A DNA stretch of 64,000 nt, from the IMG/VR virus record IMGVR_UViG_3300027881_000012, positions 1 to 64,000 of that record; one strand, given 5' to 3'. A program made the translations under genes and the position numbers. The notes under the pieces were generated by a model. The model made no database searches, had not been told where the DNA came from, and saw only the letters and a program-made list of their open reading frames with translations. Positions 17,051 to 63,637 of the stretch are shown in pieces; positions within the stretch are counted from its first letter, which is position 1; every line of letters begins with the position of its first letter. The DNA comes from a virus.

Positions 17051-17259
17051 TGGATGAAATACCTAAACACGTTGGAATATTTGCCGGCTCAAAGATATAT
17101 TATGCGGATCCGCATGATATGGAAAGGGCTAAACGGTGGGGTAGGCTCATTCACACCGAGAAAGGCCTGGCGTTTTATATTTGGAATAATGTTACCTACG
17201 TCGCGCCGATCGATGATCCGCCTATGCTTCAACTCCTAATCGGTGGAAAGGGCTCTTAG
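17038..17259 (+). CDS. Small hypothetical protein
   Basis: 73 residues: MDEIPKHVGIFAGSKIYYAD, HTEKGLAFYIWNNVTYVAPI, compact and beta-rich. It overlaps the prepilin gene by 13 bases and its TAG stop overlaps the stop of the giant minus-strand gene. Several in-frame Met codons make the start uncertain. No family recognised. Confidence 0.55.
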   Translation: MDKMMDEIPKHVGIFAGSKIYYADPHDMERAKRWGRLIHTEKGLAFYIWNNVTYVAPIDDPPMLQLLIGGKGS

Positions 17260-17290
17260 CGGGCCCTTTCCGCCGCCTTTTTCTTTAAGA
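17245..17290. terminator. Hairpin terminator at convergent gene ends
   Basis: GGAAAGGGC (17245-17253) and GCCCTTTCC (17263-17271) form a 9-bp stem whose 9-base loop contains both convergent stop codons. On the plus strand GCCGCC and then TTTTTCTTT follow, giving a rho-independent-like terminator for the rightward genes. In the other direction the hairpin lacks a T-run but could still stop or stabilise the late transcript. Confidence 0.65.
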
Positions 17291-26200: not shown

Positions 26201-29200
26201 TTCCAGCTCCCTCAATCTCAGGTAGCCGGCCACCTGGTTCGGTTGGTGGTTCAATAGCTCCGCTAATTTCGATTCCAGGGGTTGCACCAGGTTCACCAGG
26301 CCGGACTCCTGGGCCCACACCAGGAATTGCAGCGGGTGGAGCTCCTGGGGGTTCGGCACCTGGCCGCTCTGTTTCAGGAATTTGCTCGACAGGCGCGACA
26401 CCGGCAACCGGTTCAAGTTCTTCGCCTGGTTTATATATTGTTTGTCGGTCATTTCTAACGCCCTCCAATAATGGGATTAAGTCTTCGATTTTATCGACTT
26501 TTCCACTTACTAAATTATACGCCTGTGGGCCTGTTTTGTCAATGATTATCAAGCGATTATCAAACGTGGTGCCATACTTCTTATACTCCTGGCCAGATAT
26601 GCCCACATTGGCCGAAACGGTGTAATCTTTTTTGATGCCTTTCCACCATTTTGTGAACGCCGGCGCGTTGTCTGCCATGCCCTTGCCGACGATCGCCACC
26701 AGGCGCCCGCCATCTTCTAACCTGGCCAGGGCTTGCTCTATTTGATCGGCGCCAAACTTGGTTGCTCGCTTGCCCAGGACTCGGCCGGCGGTCGCGGAAA
26801 AGGGCGGATTCATTACAATTACGGTGGGCTTAACAGTTTCGGGCAGTATATTATCAAGCTGGCTGGCATCCTCAGTGAAAACCGTTTTAAATCCCATCTC
26901 GCCCAATAGGGCCGCCCGCCGTTTGTCCAGCTCATTGACAACAATATTATCACCGACAATTTGCCGGCCAAAAATAGCAAGCCCGCCCACACCGGCCGAG
27001 GGTTCAAGGTATGCGTCATTTTCTTTAATGTTCGCTACCCAATTCGCCACATAGGCCAGTGGTGGCGGGGTGCTAAACTGTTGAAACTCTCCTTGTTCCC
27101 TGGTTCTTTTGGTCTGCGTCGGTAGTTTTGCGATCGTATCTTTTAACCATGCGATATTTTCGACCGCGTTTTCCGGATCCCGCATTGTGAGCTGGTCGTG
27201 AACATAGATATTAACGCCTTGCTCCATAGCATCATAGGCGTCTTTAGGCGTATATTTACCCTGGGCCTGGGTGCCGGCAAAATCTATATCGGCCTGCTTA
27301 AATAGATCTCGCCAGGTTATCGATTCATCTTTGACTAATTTTGTATTTATCCAATTAGCCAGCTTTGTGGATCCGGCCGCCTTTTCGTGCTCCGGAGCTG
27401 CCTTTTCAGCTGGCGCCGGCGCCTCGGCCGGTCGATATTTTTCAATTTCTTGCGTTGTGGCCAGGGCCAAGTCATAATCATTTTGGGTAAAATCCTTTTC
27501 GCCAGCTTGAAAACGCTGCATGGTTTCAACGGCTGTGTCAAAAACGTCTTGGATTTTTTCGGCCGTTTGGCTCTCGATAGGCTCGCCATAAAATACCTCA
27601 AAGGCGGTTTTCTTTTCTGCCGGTGCCTCGGCCTCTACTCTCCATCGGCCAGGCATCAAGGGCACAACATCTTTTTCAAGCACTAAACGCTCGGCATATC
27701 CGCCAGATACCGCGCCGACCAGCTCCATAAAATCATCCTCGGTCATAGCTCGCGGTGCATCTTCCGGAAAATAAAACTTGATCCCTTTATCCTCGGCCTG
27801 CTTAATCTTGCCGGCTAAAATGCCGGTGGCCTCGGTCCTGGCATCGTCGGTGCGTTTCGGCGGTTTTGCGATTACATCGGCATTTCGGGCCTGGATAAAT
27901 CCGAGCCTGGCTGCCGCATAGTTAGGATATTGAGTAATGGCTACAACCTCGCCGGCGTCTTTGTCGACCACTCTAACCGTTGATTGTGCGCCTGGGGCTG
28001 CATCGGCGGTCGGTCGCCATAGCTGCGTTAATACGCCGATATTCTCGCCTTTGGCAATCAGCTTGCTTTCTGTTTCTCTGATACTGCGCACTGTGCCGAT
28101 TTCATCATCTAAAAACGGTAACTCAGCCAGGGGCTTTTCTTCCGGCGCTGCCTCTGCCGGCGGTGCCTCAACTTTGGGCGCCTCGTCTACGATCCGCCGG
28201 ATTAATACGCCTTTGGTGCCAGTGGCTTTAATCCCTAATATTTGCGCTGCCTCTACCAGGTCCGGCTTTGAAAATGCGGTTAGCTGCCGGTGCGATAAAT
28301 CGATCTCGCCGCGCTGGATCCGGCCGGCCAAGATTTCGCCATCGGTCTTAGTGGTGATAGTGGGCGGGGGAGCCTCGACCGGCGCCGCCACTTCTGGCGG
28401 AGCTGCCAGGTCAATTTCAAAATGTTCTTGTAAAGATTCTTCCTGGGTTTTCGGCTTAAACATCTGTACTTGCTTTTTAGTATCTGCCGCCGCGTCGGTC
28501 GCGTATGCTTTCCAGCGTTCTTTGTGCCTGGTGGGCTTGTCTTTGATAAGCAGATCCGCCAGCTTTTCGGTAACAACCGTATATTCGGGCTTGGCTTCAA
28601 ATAAAGGTTGCTGTGCTAAAAGATCTCTGACGCTTAGATCCTGGGCCTGGGCTGCGGTCGCCAGACGTAAACCCTCTTTAAGATCCGACGTTATATCCCA
28701 TTTGCCGCCTCGAGCCTTAACCTTTGCCAGCTCGGCCAGGGATTTTTCAATCTTGTTTAGGTGGGATTTTTGGGCGCTATTGATAAGATCGAGATCATCC
28801 ACAATATTACCGAAAATGGCCAATTCGATTACTTCTTTACCCCTTTTGTTCAACAAATCGCCCTTTTCGTTCAAATATACGTTCTTTTGTGTCGCAGAGA
28901 TCGCGCCATCATCGATGAGCCAGCCGAGGATTTCAAGGCCGTCTTTCTTGCCCAGGAGCTCACGCAGTGAAATTTCGCGGTCGGTCAACCGGATCCCTAT
29001 TTTTTCCATCGTCGCCGGCTTTATCGCTTTGCCCATCGAGGCGGTTTCCGCTGCCTGGCCCATGCCCTGCGTCATGGTTTCGTTGAATTCTCGCGCCAGG
29101 GCCCGCATTACATACTCGCTTTCAATCCGGATCCGGCGGATCAATACCGGCTGTTTCATCGGCTTTATATCTTTGGGCGCCAGGCCAAATTTAGAGGCCG

Positions 29201-32200
29201 CCGCTATCAGCTGGTTTTTATACCTGGCTGCCTTTTTAGGATCCTTAAAGGCCAGCTGGATTGACATAGTTCTGGAATTTCCGGATATAACAAAATCGCT
29301 TTGATCGACAATCGGCGGGCCGCTGGTAGGCGTCGGATCATCTGAAAGTAAAATCCGAGGATCCAGCTTGTTTGCATTTGTTATAACTTTTGCTTGCTCG
29401 GCGGTATCAGAATGATAGGCGCGTTCCTGTATCCCTTCCGGATAATCGCCGTAAGGCTGGAATGTTTCGGGGTTGTGGCTTGGAAAGAGTGTGCCGGCCT
29501 CAACTACCGTGTAGTGTGCTCGATGGCCCTCTGCATTTTGCGGTGTTATGATCCTGGTTTCGGCCTTTTTTGATATGGGCTTTGGATAAAACTTTTCCGC
29601 GATCGGCCTAAGTTTATCCAGCAAATCATCCATATAGGCCGCTTTGCGTTTGAAATGATCGTATTTTAAGACCGGATTCTCAGTGACTCCTTTTTCCTCT
29701 AATTCCTTTGTGTAGGCGTTTGCCTCGTCGCGCTTATCAACAATCCACTGCCGCGCTTTGTCAATCGTTTCATAGCTGCGGGGATCCAAAACGCCCAGGG
29801 CTATCTTGACATAACTTTCCTCGACTCCACCAGGCTTGACAAATTCCTCCCAGGGTTTCGCCGGCAAAGTGGCCTCTGGCGGGCTGGTGGGCTCCGGAGT
29901 GGTTGCTCTCTGTGGCGCCACCCTGGGCCCGCCCTTTAAGTCCGGTTTTTCTTCTGGCACTGCTGGCATTTCCGGCGGGGCTGCCTCTAATTCTGCCGGT
30001 GGCTTTACGGTTTTGCCGGCCTCGACTTCATAGCCCTGGCGCCTTAATAATTCAGCGTAAAATTCATTTAAAGGATCAAGCGGATCCAGGGCCCGATCGG
30101 TGGCATACTCCGCGATCGTATTAATGCCCAGGCGCTCCATATCGGCTGGAATATTGGCCACATCTCGCTCAACCTGGGCCCTGGCCTCGGCTAATTGTTC
30201 CTCGGCGCTCATCTTATCCCAGGCTTTTAATCCGGCCATTTTTCTTAACGCCGGCATAACGCCTTTAACGGCCGCCTGGTTTTTTGCAAATTCTCTGACA
30301 ATCCGCTGCGTTGCTGCTGCACCTTTGGGCAGGGCGGGAGCCGGCGGGGGGGGTGCCGCCGGCTTTGCGGGTGGGGCTGCTGCGGTAGGTTCTTCAAACA
30401 TATCCTCGGCCGCTGTGGCCGCGCTCGGTCGATCTTTAAACATTCCCAGGCTGGCACCTTCGGGGCTTACAAGTTCAATTAAGGTGCCCTCCGGTAATTT
30501 ATGCTCAACAAGGCCCGCGCCTGTATCCAATATAAAAGAGGGCTCGCCGGCTTTGGCTGCCGGTGCCGCTTTCCATCGAGGCCCTAATTTTTTTACCGGC
30601 GGGGGAGCTGCCGGCGGTTTCTCTGGAACAACCTCGACTTTTTTAGGTGGCGCCGGCGGAGCTGCCTTTTTCATTTCAAAGGCTGCCAGGTCCGCCCGCA
30701 TGAGCCCTAATTTTTCTTTAAGGGCCATATCTTTGTCTTTAATCAGATCGAGGACCGATTTCTTTTGCTCCGGCGATAAGCTGGCCACTAAATCATTATA
30801 TTCTTTTTTCAAGGCCTCCGGCTTTTGTGCCTTTTTAATAATGCCGGCAATCTCTTTAAAGGGCTCGCCTTTCTTTTTGGCCTCGAGCGCCTGGGCATAT
30901 CCCTTGATAACAGTATCGACAAAACGCTGTGCCTCGGCCTTAGTTTTATGAGCTCGGCCAGATAATGTGAACGTGGCGCCTTTGGCCGCGCCGCTGGTCA
31001 CTGTCATTTGCAGGCCGACCGGTTTCTCGTTCTGATAGATCACATTGTCAAAGCGGATCTTAGCGCCGGACTTTTCGCCCATTTCATCGGCCAGGGCTTG
31101 AAAGGTTTTGCGCTTAGAGGGCGCTATCCTGGTCGGTGCCTCGCGCTCGGCCTCAACTTGCGCCACTCTGATAATACCCTCCGGAGCTTTCGGGGGCGCT
31201 TTTGCCGGCGGGGCTTTTTCGGGTACCAGCGCCGTTACTGGCTCTGCGGGCACTTCGACCGCCGGCGCTACTTCCGGAGCCTCGGCCGCTGCGGCCTCTA
31301 ATTCTTCCGCCGTAAATTCGGCTGCGACTTCCTCGGCCTCGATGCCCTCGGCTCCGACAAATTCCCTGGGCGCTGTGGGTGGGATTTCCTCGGCCGGTAC
31401 TCTTTCGGCTGCGGCCTCTGGCGCCAGGTCTTCATCTAATAAAATATCCTCGGCCGTCTGGCCGTCATAATCTTTTAAAAGGCGGTCTATTTGATCGCGG
31501 GCCTCTTTGCCGGCTGCCTCGACTTTTTTCTTGGCTCTGCGCTCGGCAACCACTCCATAACCGTATTGAGTAGATGCGGCCGGTCCGCCTAATACTGGCT
31601 CCATTACCGCGCCGATCCGGCCTTGTTCATGCACTCCCTCGAATAAAGACCGCTCGGATCCAACAAATTGGGCCGCCGCGTTTGACACCATTTTCTGGCC
31701 GCCTTCCTCAACATAACCGGCGCCAGATTGTTTTGCGGTCCATAAAGTCGGCCTGGCCACTGCCCAAACGCCTTTTTTTGCTAATTGGGCGCCCTTTTTG
31801 CTCATGGCTTTTTGTACGAATAGCCTGATGAGCTCGCGCTTCATGGCCTTTTTGCCAACATTCTTGCCAAAGTGTTTCAGTAAAGCAGGGCCAAAACCTA
31901 ACCGCTCACCCAGGCCCTCAATAAATGCTGATGGTATAGCGCCAATCAATGTGAGATCCGACTTAACCTCATCGGGCACCTTGATGCCCTCTCTCCTTTC
32001 CAGCTCCGTTAATTCGGCGTCGATTTCTTTAACAAATTGCGGAAATAAAACCGCGCCGGCCATTAAGGTGGCCAGGCCAGGGCTTTTGGTGGCGGTCTGC
32101 ACTCCCATGTAAGTGCCGATTGATAAAAATGAATTGACAATATTAGTTGAAATAGTTTCACCCCAAAAGATACCAGGATATTTGACTTCGCGTTCTTCCT

Positions 32201-33482
32201 GGTCTAATTCTTTCCAATCATCGGGGAGTTTATAGTCTGGATTGTCTTTATAAAACTGCTCAATATCTTTTTGAACATTCAAGTTGCGCTCAATAGTTTT
32301 TTTGCGCAATTCCTCCATGTTTTCGGGCGGATTAGACCAGGTTACAATATCATTCGGCCGCTCCCTTAACATGGCGCCGTGTTTTTCGGCCTCGGAAAAA
32401 ATCAAATCATCTACTAAATGGCCAGTTCCCCACAAATCGGATGCCTCTTGCTGGAATCTGACTTTATAGGCCTCTTGTTTTTGAACATTATCGGGGTGCG
32501 CTTTTTTCGCAATTTGATCTACTACTGAGTCCAGGCCTTTTTTTTGCTTGGTGTCTGCCTGTAACCATAAATAATAATTCGTGGTATAAAGGCCTTTCTG
32601 ATATTCCTTAAATCCGGTATAGCCACCAGGGCCCATACGGCTGCCAAATTGGTTTGCAAAGCTCCCGCCTGCCTCGCCGGTTAGATCCCTTTCTGCGTTT
32701 GAGTCTGTATCATCAGCATAGCCGGCGCGTAATTCGTGCAGCTCTCGCGGATCCTCGATCCAGGGCCCCTTGCCCTCTGGAAATTGAAAATTAGGATCCT
32801 TCTCTAATATCCTTTTCTTAGCCTCATTAAGCGTTTTTTGGTGCCGCTTTTCTCGTTCCTTGCGTTCTTTAGTCCAGGCCCTTACGTCTTTTTTTGCATC
32901 CGACCAGCGCCAGGGCTCGGTATCTGCAATTAACGGCCGGCCGGTTTCCGGATCCACTGTCGGCCCTGCCGGCGCCTCGCCGGTTTCCTCGGCCGCTTTA
33001 TCGGCCGCGAGCTGTTGCTCTAACTCATCTGCTGGCCGGCCCTCTAACTCGGCCATTTCCTTTTGATAGGCCTGTTCGAAAGGAGTAATCGGCCGCTCTG
33101 CCAGTTCCTCTTTAAGTATGGGCTCGCCCAACTGCCCAGGGGCGGCCATGAATTCGCTTGCCTCGCCTGGTCCTGGGATCCCTAAAGGCTCTCGCTCCGG
33201 TGCGACTCCCTCGCGCTCGGCTCTCAAATCCTCTGTTAAAGGCGTTGCCGGTTTTACTGGCTCCTGGGCCTCGATGGCCTCTTGCCGGCGCTGTTCTGTT
33301 TCGATCTCTGCCGGCGGTACCTCTTTTGGTGTAAAAAACTCTTTCGCCCTGGCAAAAATGCCCTTTTTCTTTTTTTCTTCCTCATCCTCAAAGGGGTCAT
33401 AATCGAGGGGATCGCCGGAGTGATAATCTCCAACATCTTCAAAAGGATCGTAATCAAGTGATTTGCCTGTTCGATAGGCCAT
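17256..33482 (-). CDS. Giant polyvalent protein (ParB-like, SAP, methyltransferase, helicase, JAB, zincin)
   Basis: 5,408 residues in one frame. In order: acidic N-terminus; hydrophobic Gly-rich stretch near 445-530; Ala/Pro/Glu linkers; ddrB-like ParB domain with SGNSRTMSIQLA (near 1403); SAP-like motif near 1750; N6-adenine methyltransferase with EPSAGVGG (near 2162) and NPPF (near 2226); Pro/Gly linker; strawberry-notch-type SF2 helicase with GHGTGVGKGR (near 2830), DESH (near 2951) and QGLGRSHRSNQ (near 3347); RadC-like JAB with HNHPS and PSPED (near 3924); zincin-like HEGFGHHG (near 4236); long helical C-terminal part. Such polyvalent proteins (P1 DarB, Bcep22 giant protein) are packaged and injected to counter host defence. 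Encoded beside the ejection proteins. Confidence 0.9.
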   Translation of the reverse strand: MAYRTGKSLDYDPFEDVGDYHSGDPLDYDPFEDEEEKKKKGIFARAKEFFTPKEVPPAEIETEQRRQEAIEAQEPVKPATPLTEDLRAEREGVAPEREPLGIPGPGEASEFMAAPGQLGEPILKEELAERPITPFEQAYQKEMAELEGRPADELEQQLAADKAAEETGEAPAGPTVDPETGRPLIADTEPWRWSDAKKDVRAWTKERKEREKRHQKTLNEAKKRILEKDPNFQFPEGKGPWIEDPRELHELRAGYADDTDSNAERDLTGEAGGSFANQFGSRMGPGGYTGFKEYQKGLYTTNYYLWLQADTKQKKGLDSVVDQIAKKAHPDNVQKQEAYKVRFQQEASDLWGTGHLVDDLIFSEAEKHGAMLRERPNDIVTWSNPPENMEELRKKTIERNLNVQKDIEQFYKDNPDYKLPDDWKELDQEEREVKYPGIFWGETISTNIVNSFLSIGTYMGVQTATKSPGLATLMAGAVLFPQFVKEIDAELTELERREGIKVPDEVKSDLTLIGAIPSAFIEGLGERLGFGPALLKHFGKNVGKKAMKRELIRLFVQKAMSKKGAQLAKKGVWAVARPTLWTAKQSGAGYVEEGGQKMVSNAAAQFVGSERSLFEGVHEQGRIGAVMEPVLGGPAASTQYGYGVVAERRAKKKVEAAGKEARDQIDRLLKDYDGQTAEDILLDEDLAPEAAAERVPAEEIPPTAPREFVGAEGIEAEEVAAEFTAEELEAAAAEAPEVAPAVEVPAEPVTALVPEKAPPAKAPPKAPEGIIRVAQVEAEREAPTRIAPSKRKTFQALADEMGEKSGAKIRFDNVIYQNEKPVGLQMTVTSGAAKGATFTLSGRAHKTKAEAQRFVDTVIKGYAQALEAKKKGEPFKEIAGIIKKAQKPEALKKEYNDLVASLSPEQKKSVLDLIKDKDMALKEKLGLMRADLAAFEMKKAAPPAPPKKVEVVPEKPPAAPPPVKKLGPRWKAAPAAKAGEPSFILDTGAGLVEHKLPEGTLIELVSPEGASLGMFKDRPSAATAAEDMFEEPTAAAPPAKPAAPPPPAPALPKGAAATQRIVREFAKNQAAVKGVMPALRKMAGLKAWDKMSAEEQLAEARAQVERDVANIPADMERLGINTIAEYATDRALDPLDPLNEFYAELLRRQGYEVEAGKTVKPPAELEAAPPEMPAVPEEKPDLKGGPRVAPQRATTPEPTSPPEATLPAKPWEEFVKPGGVEESYVKIALGVLDPRSYETIDKARQWIVDKRDEANAYTKELEEKGVTENPVLKYDHFKRKAAYMDDLLDKLRPIAEKFYPKPISKKAETRIITPQNAEGHRAHYTVVEAGTLFPSHNPETFQPYGDYPEGIQERAYHSDTAEQAKVITNANKLDPRILLSDDPTPTSGPPIVDQSDFVISGNSRTMSIQLAFKDPKKAARYKNQLIAAASKFGLAPKDIKPMKQPVLIRRIRIESEYVMRALAREFNETMTQGMGQAAETASMGKAIKPATMEKIGIRLTDREISLRELLGKKDGLEILGWLIDDGAISATQKNVYLNEKGDLLNKRGKEVIELAIFGNIVDDLDLINSAQKSHLNKIEKSLAELAKVKARGGKWDITSDLKEGLRLATAAQAQDLSVRDLLAQQPLFEAKPEYTVVTEKLADLLIKDKPTRHKERWKAYATDAAADTKKQVQMFKPKTQEESLQEHFEIDLAAPPEVAAPVEAPPPTITTKTDGEILAGRIQRGEIDLSHRQLTAFSKPDLVEAAQILGIKATGTKGVLIRRIVDEAPKVEAPPAEAAPEEKPLAELPFLDDEIGTVRSIRETESKLIAKGENIGVLTQLWRPTADAAPGAQSTVRVVDKDAGEVVAITQYPNYAAARLGFIQARNADVIAKPPKRTDDARTEATGILAGKIKQAEDKGIKFYFPEDAPRAMTEDDFMELVGAVSGGYAERLVLEKDVVPLMPGRWRVEAEAPAEKKTAFEVFYGEPIESQTAEKIQDVFDTAVETMQRFQAGEKDFTQNDYDLALATTQEIEKYRPAEAPAPAEKAAPEHEKAAGSTKLANWINTKLVKDESITWRDLFKQADIDFAGTQAQGKYTPKDAYDAMEQGVNIYVHDQLTMRDPENAVENIAWLKDTIAKLPTQTKRTREQGEFQQFSTPPPLAYVANWVANIKENDAYLEPSAGVGGLAIFGRQIVGDNIVVNELDKRRAALLGEMGFKTVFTEDASQLDNILPETVKPTVIVMNPPFSATAGRVLGKRATKFGADQIEQALARLEDGGRLVAIVGKGMADNAPAFTKWWKGIKKDYTVSANVGISGQEYKKYGTTFDNRLIIIDKTGPQAYNLVSGKVDKIEDLIPLLEGVRNDRQTIYKPGEELEPVAGVAPVEQIPETERPGAEPPGAPPAAIPGVGPGVRPGEPGATPGIEISGAIEPPTEPGGRLPEIEGAGIEPGEPARPGERPGERIRPGDEREREGIPEAPDLSLDDLDALINEVIEEEDLTAKPAGGKKAAPKKPPVKGKIPKTDQGQFAAIANIIGNIKEPTAEYKPTVKAKELDLMTQTWAEEIGKYGTEKAQDTRGILKQLIEPLSNIADSDPIEMNVPGLEQDIFFANQKDARDFLEAYDAVLDDYLAYGGLINQAGAAPRSIQTLDNITTKIFPKTQLEAAAEVREPAAAFEALLHPQAYEQAKPILDANYTEFKGERKEWIRYVLVNLAKYNIDPEVGRNWIKYYYTTDRPDLARAPAPVRKDLIQARKKKREKIKASLYEEYQPNVEVKGARPHPTPLVETAALSDTDLPKATYKPDLPKHILKPTKKSAGISNVQLEFSIYAGQAHERFLPDGTRMGAFAGHGTGVGKGRIIASIMMDNWNKGRKKAIWLTEKQSLLNDASRDIIEMGWSEGAKALVNLNKAAAAGGKVKAKHRDNTILFSTYSTLGQGFKKINLNKPESFDDMRARINQIVEWAGADYDGVIAFDESHNMANSMQEQGARGRKPTADKALAGVLLQTMLPKARVIYVSATGATKVSNFAYAERLGLWGEGTSFADKRAFIAEINKSGLAAMEMIARGMKARGLYMAPSLSYDGVIYDRLVHELTEEQTDIYDKLAEAWQVIMRNTEAALELTNGNKSGRAKMAARGRLFGTQIRVFDSIMTAMQMPSLIRKMEKNIADGESVIIQLTQTNDAAVQRALERRQEGEDLEDLDFTPRIAISEYLQRAFPIEQYEIRTDKDGNEYAVLVRDEAGDPVENRQAVAMRDAMLREIGALRIPDSPLDQLFNVFGTDKIAEVTGRKSRVVKDLETGEYINQKWSLAKAKADVEAFKNDEKQILIFSEAGGTGVSYHADKRYKNQRLRQHYLLQPGWKASTAVQGLGRSHRSNQRQAPKYTLITTNLKAQKRFVTSIARRLDQLGALTKGQRQAGSQGIFQARDNLESDYAREALVQTFEDMVAGTLEMSAEDFQHQTGLQIVDERTGRLTGELPEMTKVLNRMLSMTINSQNTFFGDISDRLDRIIQAHAEAGTLDVGIETIDGLAVEKESERVVHTDPESGAETKYVRVSVTEPSRRVAFEDVSHLNFYQNIKSGRVWAAGETRDRTTTTGSIIAYRKMQSPNDTIQRQDESILTDEDKWIKLADKPDLSPARIWAAEYANIPETTDRDIHLITGDLLSVWDRLVGFATVYRMETDAGERLLGRVIHPNVLDQVLTNLGASADAPQVKSGVLGAKILGGARVTLANGWAFKKSMVSGDERIELLDFGHRDIDLLEKQGAIIEEINFKTRVFIPTKNNKKIFDRILLNRPVTNIAGGYQGPRIADTTLSEASAEFAGKVAKKIQAGKKAIQMDLLEYAQSAKTEKAVEALPEPTQKVEIRSTGEMGFESHVIANAEDAAAFIQPITEQAQEKGYMISVDAQGNIKEVHFIAKGARGAVGIPIVETVGRLFNTPGVTKAYFIHNHPSAEADPSPEDRAMAYTLIEMAAAGGVEIENIIVGGDVWALYSPISAAPSVKRKGKIRKTTRKTTIPIVERFIERGKRRGGPISNSGELTAHLEKYYNDRQGYLFLDNKLNDLGFVEFTPGQTASENLKEIIAEGERLNASVFIFNSKGTDAELNSRMKFLTEWNENVGGNMMQLFEFRHNGVSFADQGKVPSPKKTQDILDQKVAPITFDYILGDSPVFARKLIAPADPVTVEDVNTTVETVTAQWAAPGPKIRVYKEQQGLPPEVMDFIKEDGRENSIITGAYYKNTIYLVADNIGSNEEIVTTILHEGFGHHGLRGTLGKEGKDVFKVLRDLYIAKKNEVDKIGRELGFDLTTMDGQMQAAEEWFANQAQLGIKSKWYDRLVAAIRNWLRKLDLDIKLSNPEIRALIAAARQFTLTGQRVSAFPGQTPAFKKKKYGKAIDYGGILPEDVARRMAAAKGVGKGSFMATTKEKLAELKMERAHFPGLEKIENKKQRAQLADILRIHQEIPENARSITAEKMKDFIKDLSTDAYDIYTMNIILADMMRDIKTGLLNDQMLREGETLPFGFKTIQDVQTADAQFKRLAEIHPEIATALSDRKAYIDNMVGQLVKFKILKKEVLQHEDYFHHQVLQYWGLKDTNKGVSTGSADVRQHWRPWMAARKGSLLDYNTEYIEAEFTALSQQLGQLETAKTLERIKRQADIYGQLKDQAKRENLTNFYKQAARQLSIQFKTEITVGEVMADSKLDPLFPYRQKIAMASSQLENMAFNDKLGGDSEFADIIDQLAEIKRAKKEDLEGAPAGISDARYFDFLAYLVRTGQPGASWAATIFKNIHARNKHVQTALGKNFLTFRQLIPEGYEEWKPEPGKGWFWANTLADNVLQQVIAGERDLQDNDVKQILAKGRDIIWVMPTGLTETLDNFKAQIEQRMVGRISEASLRMWKQYILINPMRVMKYNINNMSGDLDITLAYNPKILKGFFKSLRDLRAFNKGKAGAAVKAELQLARKLGVTGSGWAVQEVEEITKKMGTDKFVRQIIMGEKPNIAMRYWQLAKGATTTRENILRLAAFRHFKQEIAKGKRVYGASKPDEIDAIQNDTERAAKLSRELVGDYGNISSSGQWIRKRLMPFYSWMEINSPRYVYMLRNVRYEGREPGARPLAIASKKALTKGLAYGAKAAMLYTLINIYNHLLWPEEEEEFGKSGRRQLHLILGRREDGSIMSIRFQGALSDTLSFFGLEDFPEDVKELWKGEKTIQQKLIEVPKALVTRLFHAIRPEPKMLMEAATGYATYPDPFSPRPIRDTKEHILRTFSLDAIYRRARGRPGRGKSMATHFLSDLERLVVYNSDPGEQAYYDTRNMIFDWKKDKGIEVSYGKPTNRGNALYYYKQALKFGDFKAAERYLMKYYDLGGKPSSLKQAIKQSHPLAGVKKMDRFKFKKDLNPAQLKTLERAIKWYDLTYRKEEPRKLRYETRRKFLKKKAAERAR

Positions 33483-51873: not shown

Positions 51874-53010
51874 TTAGGTGGTCGGATTCTTAGCAGCGGT
51901 ATCAATTACATAAATACCGTAATCCTTGCCGTTGAAAGTGACCTTTTTCACGCCGAAAATACTGTGCGTGGTGATAACAAGCTGATTGCCGTTATCGCGG
52001 GTTTCCTCGAACCAGCCAAACCTCAAACCGGTGCCAGGGGATCCAAACGCGCAGACTCCCGCCTGCTCACCCAGGAAAAGGGCTCGGCATGCCTCAATAT
52101 CGGATCCGGAGCCATAATCATCAAAGCGGATCAGATTTTCGTGTTCGTGCAACACGATATTGTTATACATGCCCAGGGCGCCCTTAAAAATCGGGTTGTT
52201 ACGCCCTTCGGCCGCCGCTGCCGCTTTTTGAATATCGAGCCACTGCCCAACATTCACGTTGGTTCGCACGTTATAAACTTGCCACGGATTCATAACCGTA
52301 CAGAAATGGTTTTCACCATTAATCATAATCGGCATGATCTTAGGCGTCTGCGTGTTGCCATCGGTGCCGGCGTCGCCGCCTCCGGATCCGCCGCCCATCA
52401 TGGTTGCTACCGCTTTGGCCTTGTCGAGCTCGCTCAGAGTTAAAACATCGGTAACAAGCAAGGTGGCTTTGGTTTTGCCGTTGGCCACCTGGATATGCTC
52501 GCTATCCGGAGCGGTCAATGAATTGCCGGCAAAACCGGTATAGGTTGACGGAAAAACAAACTCGGCATTGATGCCTCGAGCTCCGGAAAGATACATGAAA
52601 TGGAGCTCATCGAATACGCGGGCCCACCACTCGCTTTGACGCTTGCGCGATACTTTGCGCAAATTGTGGATGGTCCGCTTTCGGGTCATGCGGCCGCCGG
52701 AATTCACACCGCCGCGCATCTGGTCGATAAAGACGCCATCGGTGTAAAATTTCAGTTCTTCTTCCTTGTTCTCGAGAACATCATCCCCCTCGACCGGCTG
52801 CATTTTCAGCTGCATGGAAAGATCAAAAGAAATGAATTCGCCGGCGTCATTTTCCAGCTCATTGAGCTGATGAATGGGCATGCCACTCTCAACTCCCTGG
52901 CCAAAAAATTTCCGGCTCCAATAGGAAGTACGCGCTACGTCGACCGCGAGAAATGCCGAATACTTCTTGACAGCTTTGGGGTCATTTACCCCAATAATTG
53001 TTTGTGCCAT
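51874..53010 (-). CDS. Major capsid protein, N4-gp56 family
   Basis: 378 residues. Landmarks of the N4-gp56 (HK97-fold) family: YWSRKFFGQG early, VSRKRQSEWWARVFDELHFM, KIMPIMINGENHFCTVMNPW (about 224-243) and NNPIFKGALGMYNNIVLHEH (271-290), then FGWFEETRDNGN. No N-terminal delta domain is obvious; a separate scaffold gene lies upstream. AGGAGG ribosome site. Part of this sequence type reappears in the Tat-tagged gene at 60943-61284. Confidence 0.9.
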   Translation of the reverse strand: MAQTIIGVNDPKAVKKYSAFLAVDVARTSYWSRKFFGQGVESGMPIHQLNELENDAGEFISFDLSMQLKMQPVEGDDVLENKEEELKFYTDGVFIDQMRGGVNSGGRMTRKRTIHNLRKVSRKRQSEWWARVFDELHFMYLSGARGINAEFVFPSTYTGFAGNSLTAPDSEHIQVANGKTKATLLVTDVLTLSELDKAKAVATMMGGGSGGGDAGTDGNTQTPKIMPIMINGENHFCTVMNPWQVYNVRTNVNVGQWLDIQKAAAAAEGRNNPIFKGALGMYNNIVLHEHENLIRFDDYGSGSDIEACRALFLGEQAGVCAFGSPGTGLRFGWFEETRDNGNQLVITTHSIFGVKKVTFNGKDYGIYVIDTAAKNPTT

Positions 53011-55668: not shown

Positions 55669-56283
55669 TTATGCTCCTTGATAGAATCTGGATTTTCTTT
55701 TCGCCGGTTGTCGTGCCGCTCTAAAACCTGGTGGCATGTTTGACCGCTTTTGCATATACGCGCCTAACATCGGCGCCGCTCCTGGGGCTGGTCCGGCCGG
55801 TCCGGCCTGCATGGCCGGTGCAAATCGTTGCGCGAGTCTATCACGCAGACCTGTAAAGCTCTTTGGTGGCCCTGTGACCGGTCCGCCAGCTCCGGCGCCG
55901 GCGTCTTGTACTCCCCTGGGCACTGGCCCCATTTCGGCGCCGGCTGCTGGAATAGGCGCCTGGTTTGGCTGTGCCGGCGGAGCTATCGGCGTTTGTGCGT
56001 CGGCCGCTGCCACTTCCGGTATTGCCTCGCCCGAGGTTGTTAAAGGTGGCTGTGGCTGTGGCTGCGCTGCGCCCCGCTTTCTTCCCATTACGCCCGCAAT
56101 CCCCCTTTGTGCGGATCCCTGAAAGCCTGGTGTGCCTACTATTCCCCTGGCTTTCTTCATCGCGCCGAGTGTTCTGCCTGGTCTGAATTCGCCGGTTGAT
56201 ACGTCGCCGCCGCGTTGGCCTCTCATCCGGCCGCCCGCTCGAGCGCCCATAACATTACTTAGTTGTTTTTTTAGTCGTGGCAT
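55669..56283 (-). CDS. Basic Pro/Ala/Gly-rich protein after the portal gene
   Basis: 204 residues from the ATG at 56283 (GGAG upstream). A Gly/Arg-rich start (GARAGGRMRGQRGGD), a Pro/Gln/Ala-rich middle (PQPQPPLTTSGEAIPEVAAA) and a Lys/Arg end (FRAARQPAKRKSRFYQ). Mostly disordered. It starts 29 bases inside the end of the portal gene. Confidence 0.5.
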   Translation of the reverse strand: MPRLKKQLSNVMGARAGGRMRGQRGGDVSTGEFRPGRTLGAMKKARGIVGTPGFQGSAQRGIAGVMGRKRGAAQPQPQPPLTTSGEAIPEVAAADAQTPIAPPAQPNQAPIPAAGAEMGPVPRGVQDAGAGAGGPVTGPPKSFTGLRDRLAQRFAPAMQAGPAGPAPGAAPMLGAYMQKRSNMPPGFRAARQPAKRKSRFYQGA

Positions 56284-58558
56284 TGGTTTTAATCTCCGAT
56301 CGGTTTTGCGCTCCCTCGCGCTTTGATTTTTCAACGTCACTCAGGACTTTGGCCCTTTCGATCTGCCGGCCGGCTGCCGCGTCGGTCTTTTTAAAGTCTA
56401 ATTCCTCGTCGGCCAGCTCGACCGAGCTCTCAATGGCCATTGTTTCGGCCTCGATCTTCTCGACTTCGGCGCCGGTTTTATCGGCCTCGACTTCCGTTTT
56501 CATGCCTTTGTCGACGGCCTCGGCCTCGACTTTGGCCGCCTGGCCCTCTTTCAATCTCATTTCGATCATCTGAAAAGCCTCTAACAGTTCTTTCTCGCGC
56601 TGCTGTTCCTCGGCTTTGGCCTGTTCCTCTGCCACTACTTCTGGATCCTGGGGATCCTTGCTCGGATCTTTTTGACCGGTGATCTCGCGGATCCGCGCCA
56701 CTAAGGTTTCTTTCAAGGGCACATCGGACATATCCACCACAATATCAAGCAGGCTCATGGCCAGCTCCGGCGGTAGTTTCTCGATCATGCTCATTAATTG
56801 CTCAAAGGCTGCCTGCCTCATGGTCGCGGTATAGTTCTGGCTATCGATAACGAAATCCGCCTGGCTGGCTGTAATATCGTTGGTCATTTCGCCGGTTTCC
56901 GGATCCTCGTAATTAAGATCTATGAAATCCCATTGGTTCGGCGCTCCCTGGATCCGGATTGTTTTCTCATCAGAATAGAATTGCTCGACCAGGCTCAATT
57001 TGAGCTCGCCTACCAGCTGAAAGGCTAACCGGAGATTGTCAAACATGGTCATGGTCAAGGTGGTGCCGAGCTCCTGGCGGGCTGTGATCGCTCGGCCTGA
57101 TACCGCGTTTGTCTGCCGGCCCATCATTTCATCACTAACGCCGCCGGTCCGCTCGATATATTCGGCGTCTTGATTCATCAGCATAATGTGTTCGCCGGCC
57201 AGCTGTGTGTCGGTCTGGAAATCAAAGCGGGTGCCTTGCTTGACGCGGATCAATCCGTCTGGCCTATCGACTTCGGCCTTAATATCATCCCAATCGTCGG
57301 TTGCGTTTTCATCGGCTACAACCTGGCGCGTGTTTAGAATATGCAGGGCTTTGGATCTGCGCTTGTTTAGATCTTCCTGGGGATCGCGCAGCTGGCGGAT
57401 CATTCCATAAGGTGAGTTGTCGGTCTTTTTTCTGTGGGCCCAAATAGGAACAAAAGGAAAGCGGTTGTGATTGTATGGCGTCGGTCCATCGTGCAAAACG
57501 CCTCGGCTGCAAAAGATCATTACTCTGACGCCCATTCGAATGGCATCTATCGTGCTGGCCAGGCCCTCGTTGACAAGCGCAACATGATTTTCATTCTTCT
57601 CATCAAACATGATGCCATTTAAGGTGCCGATCTCGCGGCCTTTCATTACCTTGCCGCGCATAGGCTCTTTGTACCAGGCCTCGATCAATCTGACTCGGTT
57701 TCTCGACCAGGTTGTAATGCCGGTATCTCCGGACAGCTCGAGCGCAAAGCCGGCCTCGCCCTCGACCGGATCCACATCGATCTGTTGATCTTCCTCTTGC
57801 CAGTACAGATCATCTTTTTGCACTGCCAGCTTGACCACTCCTATCCGCTTTGGAAACATCGAGGCCGCTATATCGAAATCCACCCATTTAGATCTAAAAA
57901 GATAACGCGCATCTGAATAGTCCGGCTCAACGTGCAGGCTATCCCACCAAATATTACGCCAATCTTCCCATCTGACAAATACCGGCTCATCGTCAATATC
58001 GGATTTAACGCCGGCCTCGAGCCATCCCACTCCGGACTTGACCGAATCTTCAAAGGCCCTCGAGCGGTGAAAGGCCTCCTTGCTCACATCGGATACATAT
58101 TTCAAGATCTTGGTTTTGGTTTCCGCCAGTGGCCGATCCTCTTTGCCTCGAGGCAATACCATATAATCCATGCGGGTGCGTTTCTCGGTGCCGATAACCC
58201 AATCACAAGTAGGCTTGATCTGATTAAAGACGGTGGCCTTTTGGCCTCTGCCTTTGAGCTCGGTCTTATCGTCTTCCTCCCATTGATCGCCATCATAAAA
58301 CTTGTGGTCTTTCATTTGCTCGATCCGGAAATCACCATGCAGCTGGCGCTCGCGCTTATACCAGCCATTAAGGCGCCGGTATCGAGTCAAGATCACTTCA
58401 TCGAAATCATAGGGATGCTTGGCCAGGTCGCGGGTTTCCGCATCGGTAAAGCCCGCGAGTGCTAATTCTTCTCCCTGGGATAGGCCTTGATTGTATCCGT
58501 AGTCCGGATCATTAAACCGGTCGGGCTCAACTGCCGGAGTATTGCTTATATCCGCCAT
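56255..58558 (-). CDS. Portal protein (P22-type)
   Basis: 767 residues. YNQIKPTCDWVIGTEKRTRM-type landmarks (here VFNQIKPTCDWVIGTEKRTR), VGWLEAGVKSDIDDEPVFVR, and VSDEMMGRQTNAVSGRAITA typical of P22-like portals. The C-terminal 130 residues are a long charged helix (EAEAVDKGMKTEVEADKTGA) as in the P22 barrel. The protein forms the dodecameric DNA gate at one capsid vertex. Confidence 0.88.
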   Translation of the reverse strand: MADISNTPAVEPDRFNDPDYGYNQGLSQGEELALAGFTDAETRDLAKHPYDFDEVILTRYRRLNGWYKRERQLHGDFRIEQMKDHKFYDGDQWEEDDKTELKGRGQKATVFNQIKPTCDWVIGTEKRTRMDYMVLPRGKEDRPLAETKTKILKYVSDVSKEAFHRSRAFEDSVKSGVGWLEAGVKSDIDDEPVFVRWEDWRNIWWDSLHVEPDYSDARYLFRSKWVDFDIAASMFPKRIGVVKLAVQKDDLYWQEEDQQIDVDPVEGEAGFALELSGDTGITTWSRNRVRLIEAWYKEPMRGKVMKGREIGTLNGIMFDEKNENHVALVNEGLASTIDAIRMGVRVMIFCSRGVLHDGPTPYNHNRFPFVPIWAHRKKTDNSPYGMIRQLRDPQEDLNKRRSKALHILNTRQVVADENATDDWDDIKAEVDRPDGLIRVKQGTRFDFQTDTQLAGEHIMLMNQDAEYIERTGGVSDEMMGRQTNAVSGRAITARQELGTTLTMTMFDNLRLAFQLVGELKLSLVEQFYSDEKTIRIQGAPNQWDFIDLNYEDPETGEMTNDITASQADFVIDSQNYTATMRQAAFEQLMSMIEKLPPELAMSLLDIVVDMSDVPLKETLVARIREITGQKDPSKDPQDPEVVAEEQAKAEEQQREKELLEAFQMIEMRLKEGQAAKVEAEAVDKGMKTEVEADKTGAEVEKIEAETMAIESSVELADEELDFKKTDAAAGRQIERAKVLSDVEKSKREGAQNRSEIKTNATTKKTTK

Positions 58559-58924: not shown

Positions 58925-59425
58925 TTAATAAATTCCTTTCACGGCCAATAAGCCATCATCCTTAATGGCGCTGGTGGTTTCCTTGATCTTGGGCACTATC
59001 CGAATTGAAATGATCGCTGATACCTTTTTCAAATTGCCAGGGGTGCCGATCGGAATATCAACCGCGTGGCTAATCTCATTCGACCAGCCTCCGCAATCGG
59101 TAGTATCATCCGGACCTATGCAGGCCCGCAATTTCATATACTTGGTAACGGTTTCCCCTGGGGTGCCGGTATAGATAATATCGGCGTCGCCCTGGTAGGT
59201 ATCTGGATTAGTTGATACTGGATTGCTTTTAGCAATATCGATAAATTGAGTGTAGCCGGCGCCTGGTCCGGTGCCGACTCCGAGCTGCCAGCGGGTCATT
59301 ACGCTAAATGTTTCGGTGTCTTGCTCCCATTCTAAGCCAATCGTTTGGTTCGAATCGGCCGCGCCAGCTGGTAAGACAAACAGACCGACAAATAATACCG
59401 CGATAATAAATGCTAAAAATTTCAT
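58925..59425 (-). CDS. Secreted protein with Sec signal peptide
   Basis: 166 residues. MKFLAFIIAVLFVGLFVLPA is a clear Sec signal, with likely cleavage after GAA (about 22-23). The mature part resembles a fibronectin type III domain: a strand with a Trp (TIGLEWEQDTE), a central YMKLRACIGPDDTTDCGGWS with two Cys, and a conserved SNEISHAVDIP end. An exported protein between terminase and portal genes is unusual; a role at the cell surface, such as blocking superinfection, is only a guess. Confidence 0.65.
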   Translation of the reverse strand: MKFLAFIIAVLFVGLFVLPAGAADSNQTIGLEWEQDTETFSVMTRWQLGVGTGPGAGYTQFIDIAKSNPVSTNPDTYQGDADIIYTGTPGETVTKYMKLRACIGPDDTTDCGGWSNEISHAVDIPIGTPGNLKKVSAIISIRIVPKIKETTSAIKDDGLLAVKGIY

Positions 59426-59437
59426 GGCATCCTCCCT

Positions 59438-60922
59438 TTAGACGCTCATAGCTGTGCGCCGTTTGCGTTTCCATTTTTCGGATCCGCGCTTTTTAGGTTT
59501 GTTGCCCACCAGGCGGACCATGACATATTGAAAGGCGTCGTGGATATGTGCAAATCGGTTCTTTTCCGCCTTATCGAAAAACTCGCCGGTGTTCATTATC
59601 TCTTTGTAATGATAACCGCCTAAGAATCCATTGAGCAGCCTGGTACAGGTCGGATCTATCAAACAGCCATCGATCCTGGCCAGGATGCTATCGACCGCCT
59701 GAGTGCGAGCTGTAAAGTTTTGCTCCGAGCTCTCAACGGTGATACCTTCCTCGCCCATCAGTATTTGATTGCTGGTGAATCCGCCCTCCTTCTTTGAAAA
59801 CTTGGCCGCGCCGGCCGGATCCCCATAGTCCACCCAATCGGCATTAGGAAATCGCTTGTTACATTCTTCTTTCACCCATTTGGAAAAATCAACGATGCCC
59901 ATCTTATCGTGACAGAATTCTTTTAAAACTTGGTAGCGCAGGGGTGAAGGGTTATAAACGACGACGGCTGCCGGCACGTTTCCGGAGTTATCCCATCCTC
60001 GATACAGTGTGCCAGGGCCCACCCATACAAGCGGAGCTCTCGCCTGGTGCAGATCCCGCCGGAAATTATAATATACCAGCTTGCCTTTGACTAAGACGCC
60101 AGGCTTGCCGTCGATATACATTTCGATCCAATCCGGAGTATCTTTATAGTCCAGCATTAGATCGTTGTAATAGCCAGGCCGCAGATACTTTTCGTTTTCT
60201 CGCGGGGGCTGCCAGAATCCTTCATGGTTTGCCAGGGGCTCTATTTCCGGTATGGGCCCTGGCACTTCGTTTTGCCAGGCGAATTGGTGATAGGTGGGCA
60301 TCTCAATATCGGGGGGGTTGGTGGTTTCGAGGCCAAAACGAGGCAGGGGGAATGTTTCGTTTCCATCGATGATCCACTCCGGCGGGACCGCGCCAAACTT
60401 CTGCTTGTACCACTCGACGGCCTTTTTCATCTTTGGATAGCGGCCGATCCTGTTTTTGAGCATACGCTTGATCGAGTCGGCCACTTCGATTGACTCATCG
60501 ATCCAATAGCCAGTTACCTCGAGGCTCTTAAACTTCTTAACGTCTTGCTCTCGATCGCATGATCTAAAAAGGAGTGTTACGGTGGGGCCGTCCGGATGCT
60601 TGATCGTGTACTTTTGCTCTTGCTTTAGAAATGCGCCGAATGGGAACCACTCAAAGATGGTTGTTTGCGTAGTATCTCGGAGCTCGGCATAGGTATTGCG
60701 GACAACAACAAACTTGGTCTGTTTGATATTGAAATGCTTGAATAGATGCCAGGGGATAAGGTTGCACACTTCCCAGGCTGCGCCGGTGGTTTTGCCTGAT
60801 CCGACCGGACCGACTATGGCGCGTAAAGGGGCTCCCGACTTATGAAATTGCCTAATCGTCGGAATGGCATCGTATGTGACCTTTTCCTCATTGGTTTCGT
60901 AGCTGTGTTGAGCTAATGCCAA
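59438..60922 (-). CDS. terL: Terminase large subunit
   Basis: 494 residues. Walker A GPVGSGKT (38-45); Walker B GYWIDES (138-144); nuclease-domain acidic motifs at RGWDNSG (near 309), DYGDPAG (near 367) and HIHDAFQY (near 460). ATP-driven DNA packaging and headful or site cutting. The C-terminus is Lys/Arg-rich (KWKRKRRTAMSV). Encoded between the small-subunit genes and the portal, the usual order. Confidence 0.92.
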   Translation of the reverse strand: MALAQHSYETNEEKVTYDAIPTIRQFHKSGAPLRAIVGPVGSGKTTGAAWEVCNLIPWHLFKHFNIKQTKFVVVRNTYAELRDTTQTTIFEWFPFGAFLKQEQKYTIKHPDGPTVTLLFRSCDREQDVKKFKSLEVTGYWIDESIEVADSIKRMLKNRIGRYPKMKKAVEWYKQKFGAVPPEWIIDGNETFPLPRFGLETTNPPDIEMPTYHQFAWQNEVPGPIPEIEPLANHEGFWQPPRENEKYLRPGYYNDLMLDYKDTPDWIEMYIDGKPGVLVKGKLVYYNFRRDLHQARAPLVWVGPGTLYRGWDNSGNVPAAVVVYNPSPLRYQVLKEFCHDKMGIVDFSKWVKEECNKRFPNADWVDYGDPAGAAKFSKKEGGFTSNQILMGEEGITVESSEQNFTARTQAVDSILARIDGCLIDPTCTRLLNGFLGGYHYKEIMNTGEFFDKAEKNRFAHIHDAFQYVMVRLVGNKPKKRGSEKWKRKRRTAMSV

Positions 60923-60942
60923 ATTTCAATCTCCGCATTGGC

Positions 60943-61284
60943 TTATCCTCTCCTTTTGCTTTGCCGGCCTCCTGGCCGGTATAGTTCATCAAATGGGATC
61001 CGCTCGGCCGTACACACATAATAATCAGTGCCATCGATCTTGACCGGTTTGATCTTCGACCATGCAGATCCCCATCGTTGCGCATCTTCAATTTGCGATA
61101 GGCTTAACTTGTCCTCATAGATATGGACGCCATCATATTGGCCCAGGGCGCCGGTGAAAAGCGGATTAGGGTAGGCCGCTGCCGGCGCCTTTTCTGCTGC
61201 CGCCACCAGGACCGCCGGCGCCATGACGGCCGCAGCTGCCCCGATACCGATCTGCTTTAGAAATTTCCGCCTTGTAATTTTCAT
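60943..61284 (-). CDS. Tat-signal protein carrying major-capsid-like segments
   Basis: 113 residues. MKITRRKFLKQIGIGAAAAV starts a textbook Tat signal (TRRKFLK, then a hydrophobic Ala/Gly run to about 30). Residues 40-60 (NPLFTGALGQYDGVHIYEDK) match the capsid protein at 272-293 (NPIFKGALGMYNNIVLHEHE; ten identities in about 21). Residues 76-94 (SKIKPVKIDGTDYYVCTAE) resemble capsid 223-241 (PKIMPIMINGENHFCTVMN). In the capsid the two blocks occur in the opposite order. No strong ribosome site. Either an exported capsid-derived domain or a remnant fused to a signal. Confidence 0.65.
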   Translation of the reverse strand: MKITRRKFLKQIGIGAAAAVMAPAVLVAAAEKAPAAAYPNPLFTGALGQYDGVHIYEDKLSLSQIEDAQRWGSAWSKIKPVKIDGTDYYVCTAERIPFDELYRPGGRQSKRRG

Positions 61285-61404: not shown

Positions 61405-62037
61405 TTAGGCGCTTTTGATCTGTGCCATGCCGGCATCGACCGGTTTCTCTAAGTCGCCTATAATGTAGTAGGTGATCTTTTCGACTCCGGATCCGTCGCC
61501 ATCGAGGCCGTAAGTTTGCCTTTGCAGGGGCACTATCTTATCAACCACATAGGCCACTGTTCGCAAAAGATTGTTGCGCTCTTTCAATGCCAGCTGCGCA
61601 GCCATGACGATATTTTTCTTGACTCGATCGCCGCCTGCCAGCTTGGCCATGATGCCGCTCGAGCTCTTTAAATCTTCGACGGTTACATCTATCTGTTGCA
61701 AGATTTTGGAAAATAAAATCTTGTGAGCTCCCACCACTCCCGCGCCTACCTCGCCATAGCTCTCGATGGACTCATCATAGTTATCGGGTGTAACCGCATG
61801 CTGTAACTCAGCCTCGAGTAGCTTGTGGTTGACCGAATTTTTAACATCGGTGGCCAGCTTGCGCGTTAATCCGAGGCCATCCATGTGTTTCATTATGGCC
61901 TGGCGGGTCGGTCCATAAGCCCTTGAAATCGCTGCAACACTTAGCTGGCCGAGCTGGTACTCATTCTCAACCTTTTGCCAAATCTTAACCGGATAACCGT
62001 TGCCGTTAGCCTGGCCGTTTTTCTTCTCTTGTGACAT
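61405..62037 (-). CDS. terS: Putative terminase small subunit
   Basis: 210 residues. An N-terminal helix-turn-helix (YQLGQLSVAAISRAYGPTRQ, AIMKHMDGLGLTRKLAT), then helical oligomerisation segments (KILFSKILQQIDVTVEDLKS, VAYVVDKIVPLQRQTYG). Size, HTH and position just upstream of the large subunit support the call, which is otherwise unverified. Overlaps the previous gene by 32 bases. Confidence 0.7.
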   Translation of the reverse strand: MSQEKKNGQANGNGYPVKIWQKVENEYQLGQLSVAAISRAYGPTRQAIMKHMDGLGLTRKLATDVKNSVNHKLLEAELQHAVTPDNYDESIESYGEVGAGVVGAHKILFSKILQQIDVTVEDLKSSSGIMAKLAGGDRVKKNIVMAAQLALKERNNLLRTVAYVVDKIVPLQRQTYGLDGDGSGVEKITYYIIGDLEKPVDAGMAQIKSA

Positions 62038-62776: not shown

Positions 62777-63172
62777 TTAACCATCGTCAAGGTATTTGGC
62801 GATAATCCCCGCCATCTTTGTCCTTAACTTAATCCAGGCACCATCATAGGAGCTCGCATCTTTGGCCGGATCCATCAAAGCGAGTTTCCAGCCGTCTAAC
62901 AGGGTTTCAATCGAGTCAAGCACTGGATCTAACTTGCCTTTCATTTCGGCCTTATCCTCTGCCGTCAAAAGGGTGCCGTAAACGGTTAGAGATTCGAGCT
63001 GGTCATTATAAAACTTCCGAGCTGTGACATACTTGCCTTTCGGCGTATCCGGTATGGGATTACCGGCAAATCGAGTACCCGCGCAGCCCGCGACCGCGAT
63101 CACCAGGAACACTGCTATAATTAGCAGTATGCTATCGCAAAATTCGTGAAAAATCTGTTTCCTCAGTTTCAT
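62777..63172 (-). CDS. Phage lipoprotein
   Basis: 131 residues. SILLIIAVFLVIAVAGC ends in a lipobox (VAGC, Cys30), so the mature protein should be lipidated. The rest is helical (YNDQLESLTVYGTLLTAEDK, KMAGIIAKYLDD). In lysis regions such lipoproteins are often outer spanins, but this one is long and has no overlapping inner-membrane partner, so superinfection exclusion is an alternative. Confidence 0.7.
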   Translation of the reverse strand: MKLRKQIFHEFCDSILLIIAVFLVIAVAGCAGTRFAGNPIPDTPKGKYVTARKFYNDQLESLTVYGTLLTAEDKAEMKGKLDPVLDSIETLLDGWKLALMDPAKDASSYDGAWIKLRTKMAGIIAKYLDDG

Positions 63173-63199: not shown

Positions 63200-63637
63200 T
63201 TATGCCGGCGGTGGTACTCTCGGCTCCATCGCGCCGGCGTCGATTTTGAGCCGCTTGGTTGTCAAGACGGCCGCCTCGACCTGGCCGGAAATAAATTCAG
63301 CCAGGTTATCGTTTGCGAGCTCTAAAATTTTCTTGGTGGCTGTTGGTAGCTGGTCGGTAATTGATTTAATCGCGGCCTCTTTTAGCACCTGGCCCTCATC
63401 CTGGGTAATCGCGCCATCGGCGCCTACTTGCTTAACCGTTTCATTTACCCGCACAACCGCGCTTTGCACCACTCCGCTTAAAATCACCATAGCATCATCG
63501 ACGGCCTGGCTATCGGTCTTGGTTTTAATCCATTTTTTCAGCTCGTACAGGGCCCAGGTTGTCAAAGCCGATACGGCCGCCACTGCAAATGGAATAATAA
63601 TTGCTAAAATCTGCTGCGATATGGTTGATTCATCCAT
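63200..63637 (-). CDS. Holin-type membrane protein (LLH-like)
   Basis: 145 residues. One membrane helix (about 10-31, ILAIIIPFAVAAVSALTTWA) and then a cytoplasmic LYELKKWIKTKTDSQAVDDA and long helical tail. The organisation matches the Holin_LLH family (PF09682) as I recall it. It would time membrane permeabilisation. Encoded beside the lipoprotein and a coiled-coil protein. Confidence 0.7.
   Translation of the reverse strand: MDESTISQQILAIIIPFAVAAVSALTTWALYELKKWIKTKTDSQAVDDAMVILSGVVQSAVVRVNETVKQVGADGAITQDEGQVLKEAAIKSITDQLPTATKKILELANDNLAEFISGQVEAAVLTTKRLKIDAGAMEPRVPPPA

Follow-up and report, generated by a model that had tools for sequence, protein, structure and literature searches.

The gene between TerS and TerL and its surroundings

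The window, by which we mean the whole stretch of 64,000 nucleotides that was analysed, comes from a virus record with a length of 65,064 bases and carries the genes listed in Table 1, including those for the small and large terminase subunits (TerS and TerL), the portal protein and a major capsid protein (MCP) of the N4-gp56 family. This MCP is 44–50% identical to the capsids of Bcep22-like and related podoviruses, and the solved capsid PDB 8h89 is close to it. Between TerS and TerL, where the first-pass annotation had correctly placed it, lies an open reading frame (ORF) whose product is MKITRRKFLKQIGIGAAAAVMAPAVLVAAAEKAPAAAYPNPLFTGALGQYDGVHIYEDKLSLSQIEDAQRWGSAWSKIKPVKIDGTDYYVCTAERIPFDELYRPGGRQSKRRG. 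Residues 3–27 of this protein match the twin-arginine (Tat) signal profile TIGR01409 TAT_signal_seq at 25.1 bits (curated cutoff 16.7). The twin-arginine motif and the hydrophobic stretch that define a Tat substrate at the sequence level are both present, and Tat targeting, which had been claimed from the leader by eye, is therefore well supported as a prediction. The protein resembles known TIGR01409 proteins in its RRKFLK leader, its hydrophobic stretch and its AxA-type end, but its passenger is a string of phage-head motifs, unlike any known Tat cargo, cofactor enzymes included.

Table 1. Positions of the Tat gene, its segments and the neighbouring or parent genes in the window.
Feature	Position	Strand	Basis
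Tat-leader mosaic gene	60943..61284	(-)	ORF, ATG start, 113 aa; TIGR01409 above cutoff; capsid matches
Tat leader (residues 1-31) with RRKFLK, a hydrophobic stretch and an AxA-type cleavage region	61192..61284	(-)	TIGR01409, invariant RR
Block 1, residues 40-57, NPLFTGALGQYDGVHIYE, capsid-like	61114..61167	(-)	MCP profile, phrog_334
Block 2, residues 58-92, DKLSLSQIEDAQRWGSAWSKIKPVKIDGTDYYVCT, capsid-like; before block 1 in real capsids	61009..61113	(-)	MCP profile
Tail at the C-terminus (residues 93-113 plus stop) with an ERIPF / WIPF-type motif common to relatives	60943..61008	(-)	Family alignment
TerS, upstream neighbour of the Tat gene	61405..62037	(-)	phrog_1206, E 9.9e-17
TerL, downstream neighbour; motif parent in some relatives' mosaics	59438..60922	(-)	phrog_2, E 8.6e-22
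Portal protein; parent of motifs in relatives' mosaics	56255..58558	(-)	Size, place, portal matches of its family
MCP, N4-gp56 family; parent family of blocks 1 and 2	51874..53010	(-)	TIGR04387, 165.5 bits
Own-MCP counterpart of block 1, NPIFKGALGMYNNIVLHE	52144..52197	(-)	
Own-MCP counterpart of block 2, LTLSELDKAKAVATM...KIMPIMINGENHFCTVM (approximate limits)	52291..52446	(-)	

Where the Tat gene ends, positions 60888-60938 (-) contain AAAAGGAGAGG followed by ATGCGGAGATTG, both conserved in relatives; they open a mini-ORF of 16 codons (MRRLKFGISSTQLRNQ), which overlaps the start of TerL and may serve translational coupling. A scan of the TerS-TerL interval for promoters and terminators gave nothing above chance level. 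Directly downstream of TerL, the product of positions 58925-59425 (-) has a Sec-type signal peptide (MKFLAFIIAVLFVGLFVLPAGAA...), and Pfam and PHROG searches returned no match for it. Immediately upstream of TerS, inspection by eye revealed a lipoprotein-like ORF (62777-63172) and a one-helix, holin-like ORF (63200-63637), both on the minus strand, which suggests that a lysis cassette adjoins the Tat gene. One quarter of the window (17256-33482, minus strand) is taken up by an ORF of 5408 aa encoding a giant polyprotein.

Capsid-like blocks in the passenger

The best match of the Tat protein among 38,880 PHROG families is phrog_334, a major head protein (E 0.0041; residues 33–57 on profile positions 254–278), and its best Pfam match is Phage_capsid_3 (PF13252; E 0.06, 12.7 bits against a cutoff of 23), so that two independent libraries both put residues 31–57 on the capsid. 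With a broad MCP profile, residues 32–60 align to columns 254–282 (24.4 bits) and residues 58–92 to columns 188–229 (14.0 bits); since the later columns come first in the small protein, the order of the blocks is inverted relative to the MCP. The two capsid-like blocks in swapped order that had been noticed by eye are thus recovered by profile, although block 2 had been drawn too short, as it also takes in the preceding helix segment. A narrower MCP profile, built without the capsids fetched by the block-1 motif, finds the blocks in the same places at 5.7 and 5.3 bits (E about 0.006), scores low enough that the protein of the window alone makes a moderate case, the strength of which comes from its family. 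None of 3600 trials in which shuffled mature parts were compared with three profiles exceeded 7.5 bits. Further, when six homologues were compared with 28 capsids, profile against profile, block 1 matched at 96% probability (E 3e-9); the hhalign probabilities for two sub-families are 96–97%.

The first-pass annotation had likened the blocks to the phage's own MCP; the capsid likeness stands, but other N4-gp56 capsids are nearer than the phage's own. Block 1 agrees with one of them (NPLFTGALGVYDGVILYE) at 15 of 18 positions and with its own-MCP counterpart (NPIFKGALGMYNNIVLHE) at 9 of 18, a closeness to "foreign" capsids that is biased by the presence, in the broad capsid set, of sequences fetched with the block-1 motif.

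The protein shares with the N4-gp56 MCP (TIGR04387 / PF13252 / phrog_334) the NPxFxGALG and KIxPxxIDG motifs, confined to two short segments. However, it has 113 residues compared with about 378, carries a Tat leader, and lacks a full-length match, PF13252 falling below its cutoff and TIGR04387 giving no match at all. Because of this, and because its MCP motifs are present in inverted rather than native order, we do not regard it as a member of the capsid family.

Structure prediction gave a model of the MCP (pLDDT 85.4) in which block 1 corresponds to a short hairpin and block 2 to a helix and a hairpin, joined by a low-confidence, glycine-rich loop that is missing from the small protein. The AlphaFold model of the small protein itself has no confident fold (pLDDT 52.8, pTM 0.22) and is too poor to use, and PDB matches for the mature protein were judged not credible. 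A LamG-like reading of YDGVHIYEDKLSLSQI, made by eye, was dropped, since Pfam gave no LamG match and the capsid matches are specific.

Mosaic genes in related phages

Relatives were gathered by TerL-anchored searches in which the passenger sequence was not used; as they were found through TerL synteny, the matches of their passengers to capsid, portal and TerL are not circular. Every relative with a TerL identity of 59% or more and with this interval covered has one to three Tat ORFs between TerS and TerL, which amounts to a family of 16 distinct Tat proteins on 17 contigs from 11 phage lineages. In phages with a TerL 50–58% identical, no Tat genes were found in this interval, and the mosaics are confined to one phage group. 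Both leader arginines are invariant in all 16 family members, 10 of which match TIGR01409 at E<=0.01. Close homologues, which had been named beforehand as a check, keep both the Tat leader and the capsid-like blocks. Additional loci returned by the family search (L165-L182) proved to be genuine full-length capsids and were set aside.

The passengers differ between relatives and consist of varied stitchings of short conserved motifs from the MCP, the portal and TerL. For example, L006 and L010 combine block 1 with a portal motif (KFFEGDQWSKAQRELLTRGSTAIKVN in L006), whereas L013c, L098b and L101b have an N-proximal MCP motif (LKAQPIEGDSALEGQEERLEY in L013c) followed by the block-1 motif in native order. 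An MCP C-terminal motif is joined to a portal motif (QRELNRRASKILDI) in L013b, and two portal motifs are found in L101a. The passenger of L098a contains two TerL motifs (DPKKFKNLESTGTWV and RFSHIDDAYQYMV), one MCP C-terminal motif and one portal motif, while that of L112a is made of pieces of TerL, portal and MCP. The passenger of L013a could not be assigned with the MCP, portal and TerL profiles, and many of the stretches between motifs in the mosaic proteins match nothing assignable. Given this variety, the permuted order in the window is one instance of free re-stitching. The first-pass annotation, which described capsid-like segments, was right about the MCP motifs and missed the portal and TerL motifs of the relatives, in view of which the gene is a mosaic drawn from head as well as packaging proteins and more than a capsid decoy.

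Two ORFs outside this pattern were also seen. The L101 interval contains a leaderless ORF of 78 aa (L101:820-1056) that ends in the MCP C-terminal motif KVIFNSKDYGVIQI (17.5 bits), and L146 has a Tat-leader ORF (L146:3887-4108) downstream of a TerL that is 52% identical, with a passenger, KLKMQICPFLTDSDVWYLQKPT, to which no assignment could be given.

An ordinary Tat protein that merely happens to look capsid-like would account for the weak single-library E-values of the window protein (PHROG 0.0041, Pfam 0.06) and for the 5–6 bits per block obtained with the narrow MCP profile. By contrast, the profiles of MCP, portal and TerL gave 27 matches at E<=1e-4 in 16 of 18 proteins, where shuffling the mature parts 200 times led to an expectation of 0.005 proteins, and the matches of the relatives were already visible with the narrower profiles. 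Among 40 protein families from these phages, only these three profiles match the mosaics. Further, the loci were found to contain 1165 small, non-nested ORFs, and outside true gene fragments similar matches were restricted to the Tat ORFs and two others, namely the leaderless ORF in the L101 interval and a contig-edge ORF beside a Tat gene of L113. In view of these controls and of the hhalign probabilities for two sub-families, chance resemblance is highly improbable. The same motifs are reused across different mosaic architectures, and in conservation they rank between the 78th and the 100th percentile of their parent proteins, a figure that partly reflects detection bias, since less conserved pieces would be missed.

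We found no earlier description of phage genes in which an export leader is followed by short conserved motifs stitched together from unrelated virion proteins. The literature searched describes no Tat-targeted capsid or portal mosaic, in agreement with the first-pass annotation, which knew of no phage protein of such design. A search of GTDB genome contigs with the mature window protein returned no homologue, and GenBank phages and plasmids gave just weak matches (E>0.5), namely to real capsids and, with the window protein as query, to unrelated genes, with none for its L005 homologue. The mosaic of head motifs behind a Tat leader looks real, and a precedent was not found in the sources searched.

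Selection, origin and possible function

Block 1 has a pooled pN/pS of 0.34, compared with 0.57 in the leader, 0.55 in the C-terminal motif and 0.71 in the fast-evolving middle region, and its dN/dS between closely related pairs is 0.08–0.15. Block 1 is therefore under purifying selection, and its constraint is stronger than that of the leader. These values bear on the view that function resides in the leader while the passenger is incidental, in which case the host's Tat translocase might be saturated or jammed, or the TerS-TerL interval might be kept translated for coupling to TerL, the passengers being scraps of nearby late genes. Such a view would fit with the leader being the sole part common to all members, with the fast evolution of the middle region, and with the strong ribosome-binding-like stretch AAAAGGAGAGG and the conserved ATGCGGAGATTG that follow the gene just before TerL. 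However, it does not readily explain why block 1 should be more constrained than the leader, or why the passengers are drawn from just three of 40 families, with the same motifs recurring in different contexts, and we consider it rather unlikely.

At the DNA level, the mosaics and their parent genes are about 75–80% similar over about 50 bases, a similarity at the codon level only, so that the segments are old; recent copying from the phage's own genes finds no support in this comparison. Illegitimate recombination might nevertheless keep yielding fused, decaying and functionless ORFs at this site, as the variable number and content of the ORFs, the sequence without assignment and the leaderless piece in L101 might suggest. 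Against this, every motif match falls in an intact sense ORF, and a search of the TerS-TerL interval for broken-frame or antisense remnants found none. The ORFs are intact and free of remnants in all lineages, the gene is present in 11 of 11, DNA-level copies of recent date are lacking, and block 1 is under purifying selection. Taken together with the controls above, this makes recombination debris decidedly improbable, and it disfavours the "decayed insertion" that had been offered as one explanation in the first-pass annotation, since intact genes with a pN/pS of 0.34 in block 1 are unlikely to be decaying.

The segments show middling similarity to the parent proteins of their own phage. The TerL blocks and the portal block of L006 rank near their own clade and the MCP blocks do not, and a consistently foreign origin is therefore not supported. 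Such a pattern could be expected in part if the gene were an accessory factor of the phage's own head assembly, tethered to the membrane, whose homotypic motifs bring the phage's capsid, portal or terminase to the inner membrane or nucleate them there. The position of the gene between packaging genes, the derivation of all motifs from head or packaging proteins, and the TerL and L006 portal motifs near their own clade are consistent with such a role. However, the MCP blocks are nearer to other capsids than to their own, and phages with a TerL 50–58% identical manage without the gene, which makes an assembly role improbable.

We hypothesize instead, with a probability of roughly 0.4, that the gene encodes a functional Tat-targeted mosaic that works by molecular mimicry as a competitive antagonist. 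In this model, the Tat leader would route the passenger to the inner membrane or periplasm, and the passenger would present short, highly conserved head-protein motifs, two inverted MCP motifs in the window and assortments of MCP, portal and TerL motifs in the relatives. These motifs may occupy the usual binding partners of capsid, portal or terminase in place of those proteins, the two leading candidate partners being a host sensor of head proteins and the head or packaging complex that a related, co-infecting phage is assembling. The Tat genes of the family are always intact and always within the TerS-TerL interval, which we count in favour of mimicry. The main difficulty is that a passenger exported by Tat could no longer reach cytoplasmic sensors or heads under assembly, so the protein would have to stay at the membrane or act before it is exported. 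A periplasmic decoy and an exclusion factor, both suggested in the first-pass annotation, are likewise candidate roles.

Terminase is sensed by Avs systems. The capsid is sensed by the host systems CapRel (PMC9712102) and Thoeris (PMC11312562), a short capsid peptide triggers Lit (PMC11312562, PMC9712102), and the portal is sensed by SpbK and some Avs systems (PMC12847820). The three parents of the mosaics are thus, or belong to, known triggers of head-protein sensors, but none of the counter-defences described against these sensors is a Tat-routed mosaic of trigger motifs. A comparison with PADLOC defence proteins gave no relationship to the mosaic protein, a result that says nothing on binding. 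As for rival phages, PICI capsid redirection is a form of interference with phage assembly. Tail-assembly interference (Tai) acts on tails (PMC11364771). If the mosaics work in a similar way, they would share with Tai and PICI interference the antagonism of another phage's assembly, but no such system has been described in which head motifs are strung behind a Tat leader.

More tentatively still, the family might represent a new class of proteins, in which strings of the most conserved capsid, portal and terminase motifs, predicted to be routed by Tat, are selected to antagonise whatever recognises them, host sensors or rival assembly alike, and are repeatedly re-stitched between TerS and TerL. 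The family shows that a single locus can give rise to chimeras of this kind, and keep them, again and again. If functional, the mosaics would reveal which few capsid, portal and terminase peptides merit mimicry, and hence are read by hosts or rivals, and they would serve as small natural tools for probing immunity to head proteins and competition between phages.

Insertions were also observed in two of the parent genes of relatives. A Group I intron (Rfam RF00028, 88.8 bits; L013:17206-17431) lies within the major capsid gene of L013, where it splits the frame after the codons for ...LKFYTD. TerL of L015 (L015:9971-12319) is interrupted by an intein-like insertion between ...KNKYSH and CHDALQY..., and probably so is TerL of L150. 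The insertion falls exactly in the TerL C-terminal motif that recurs in the mosaics L098a and L112a.
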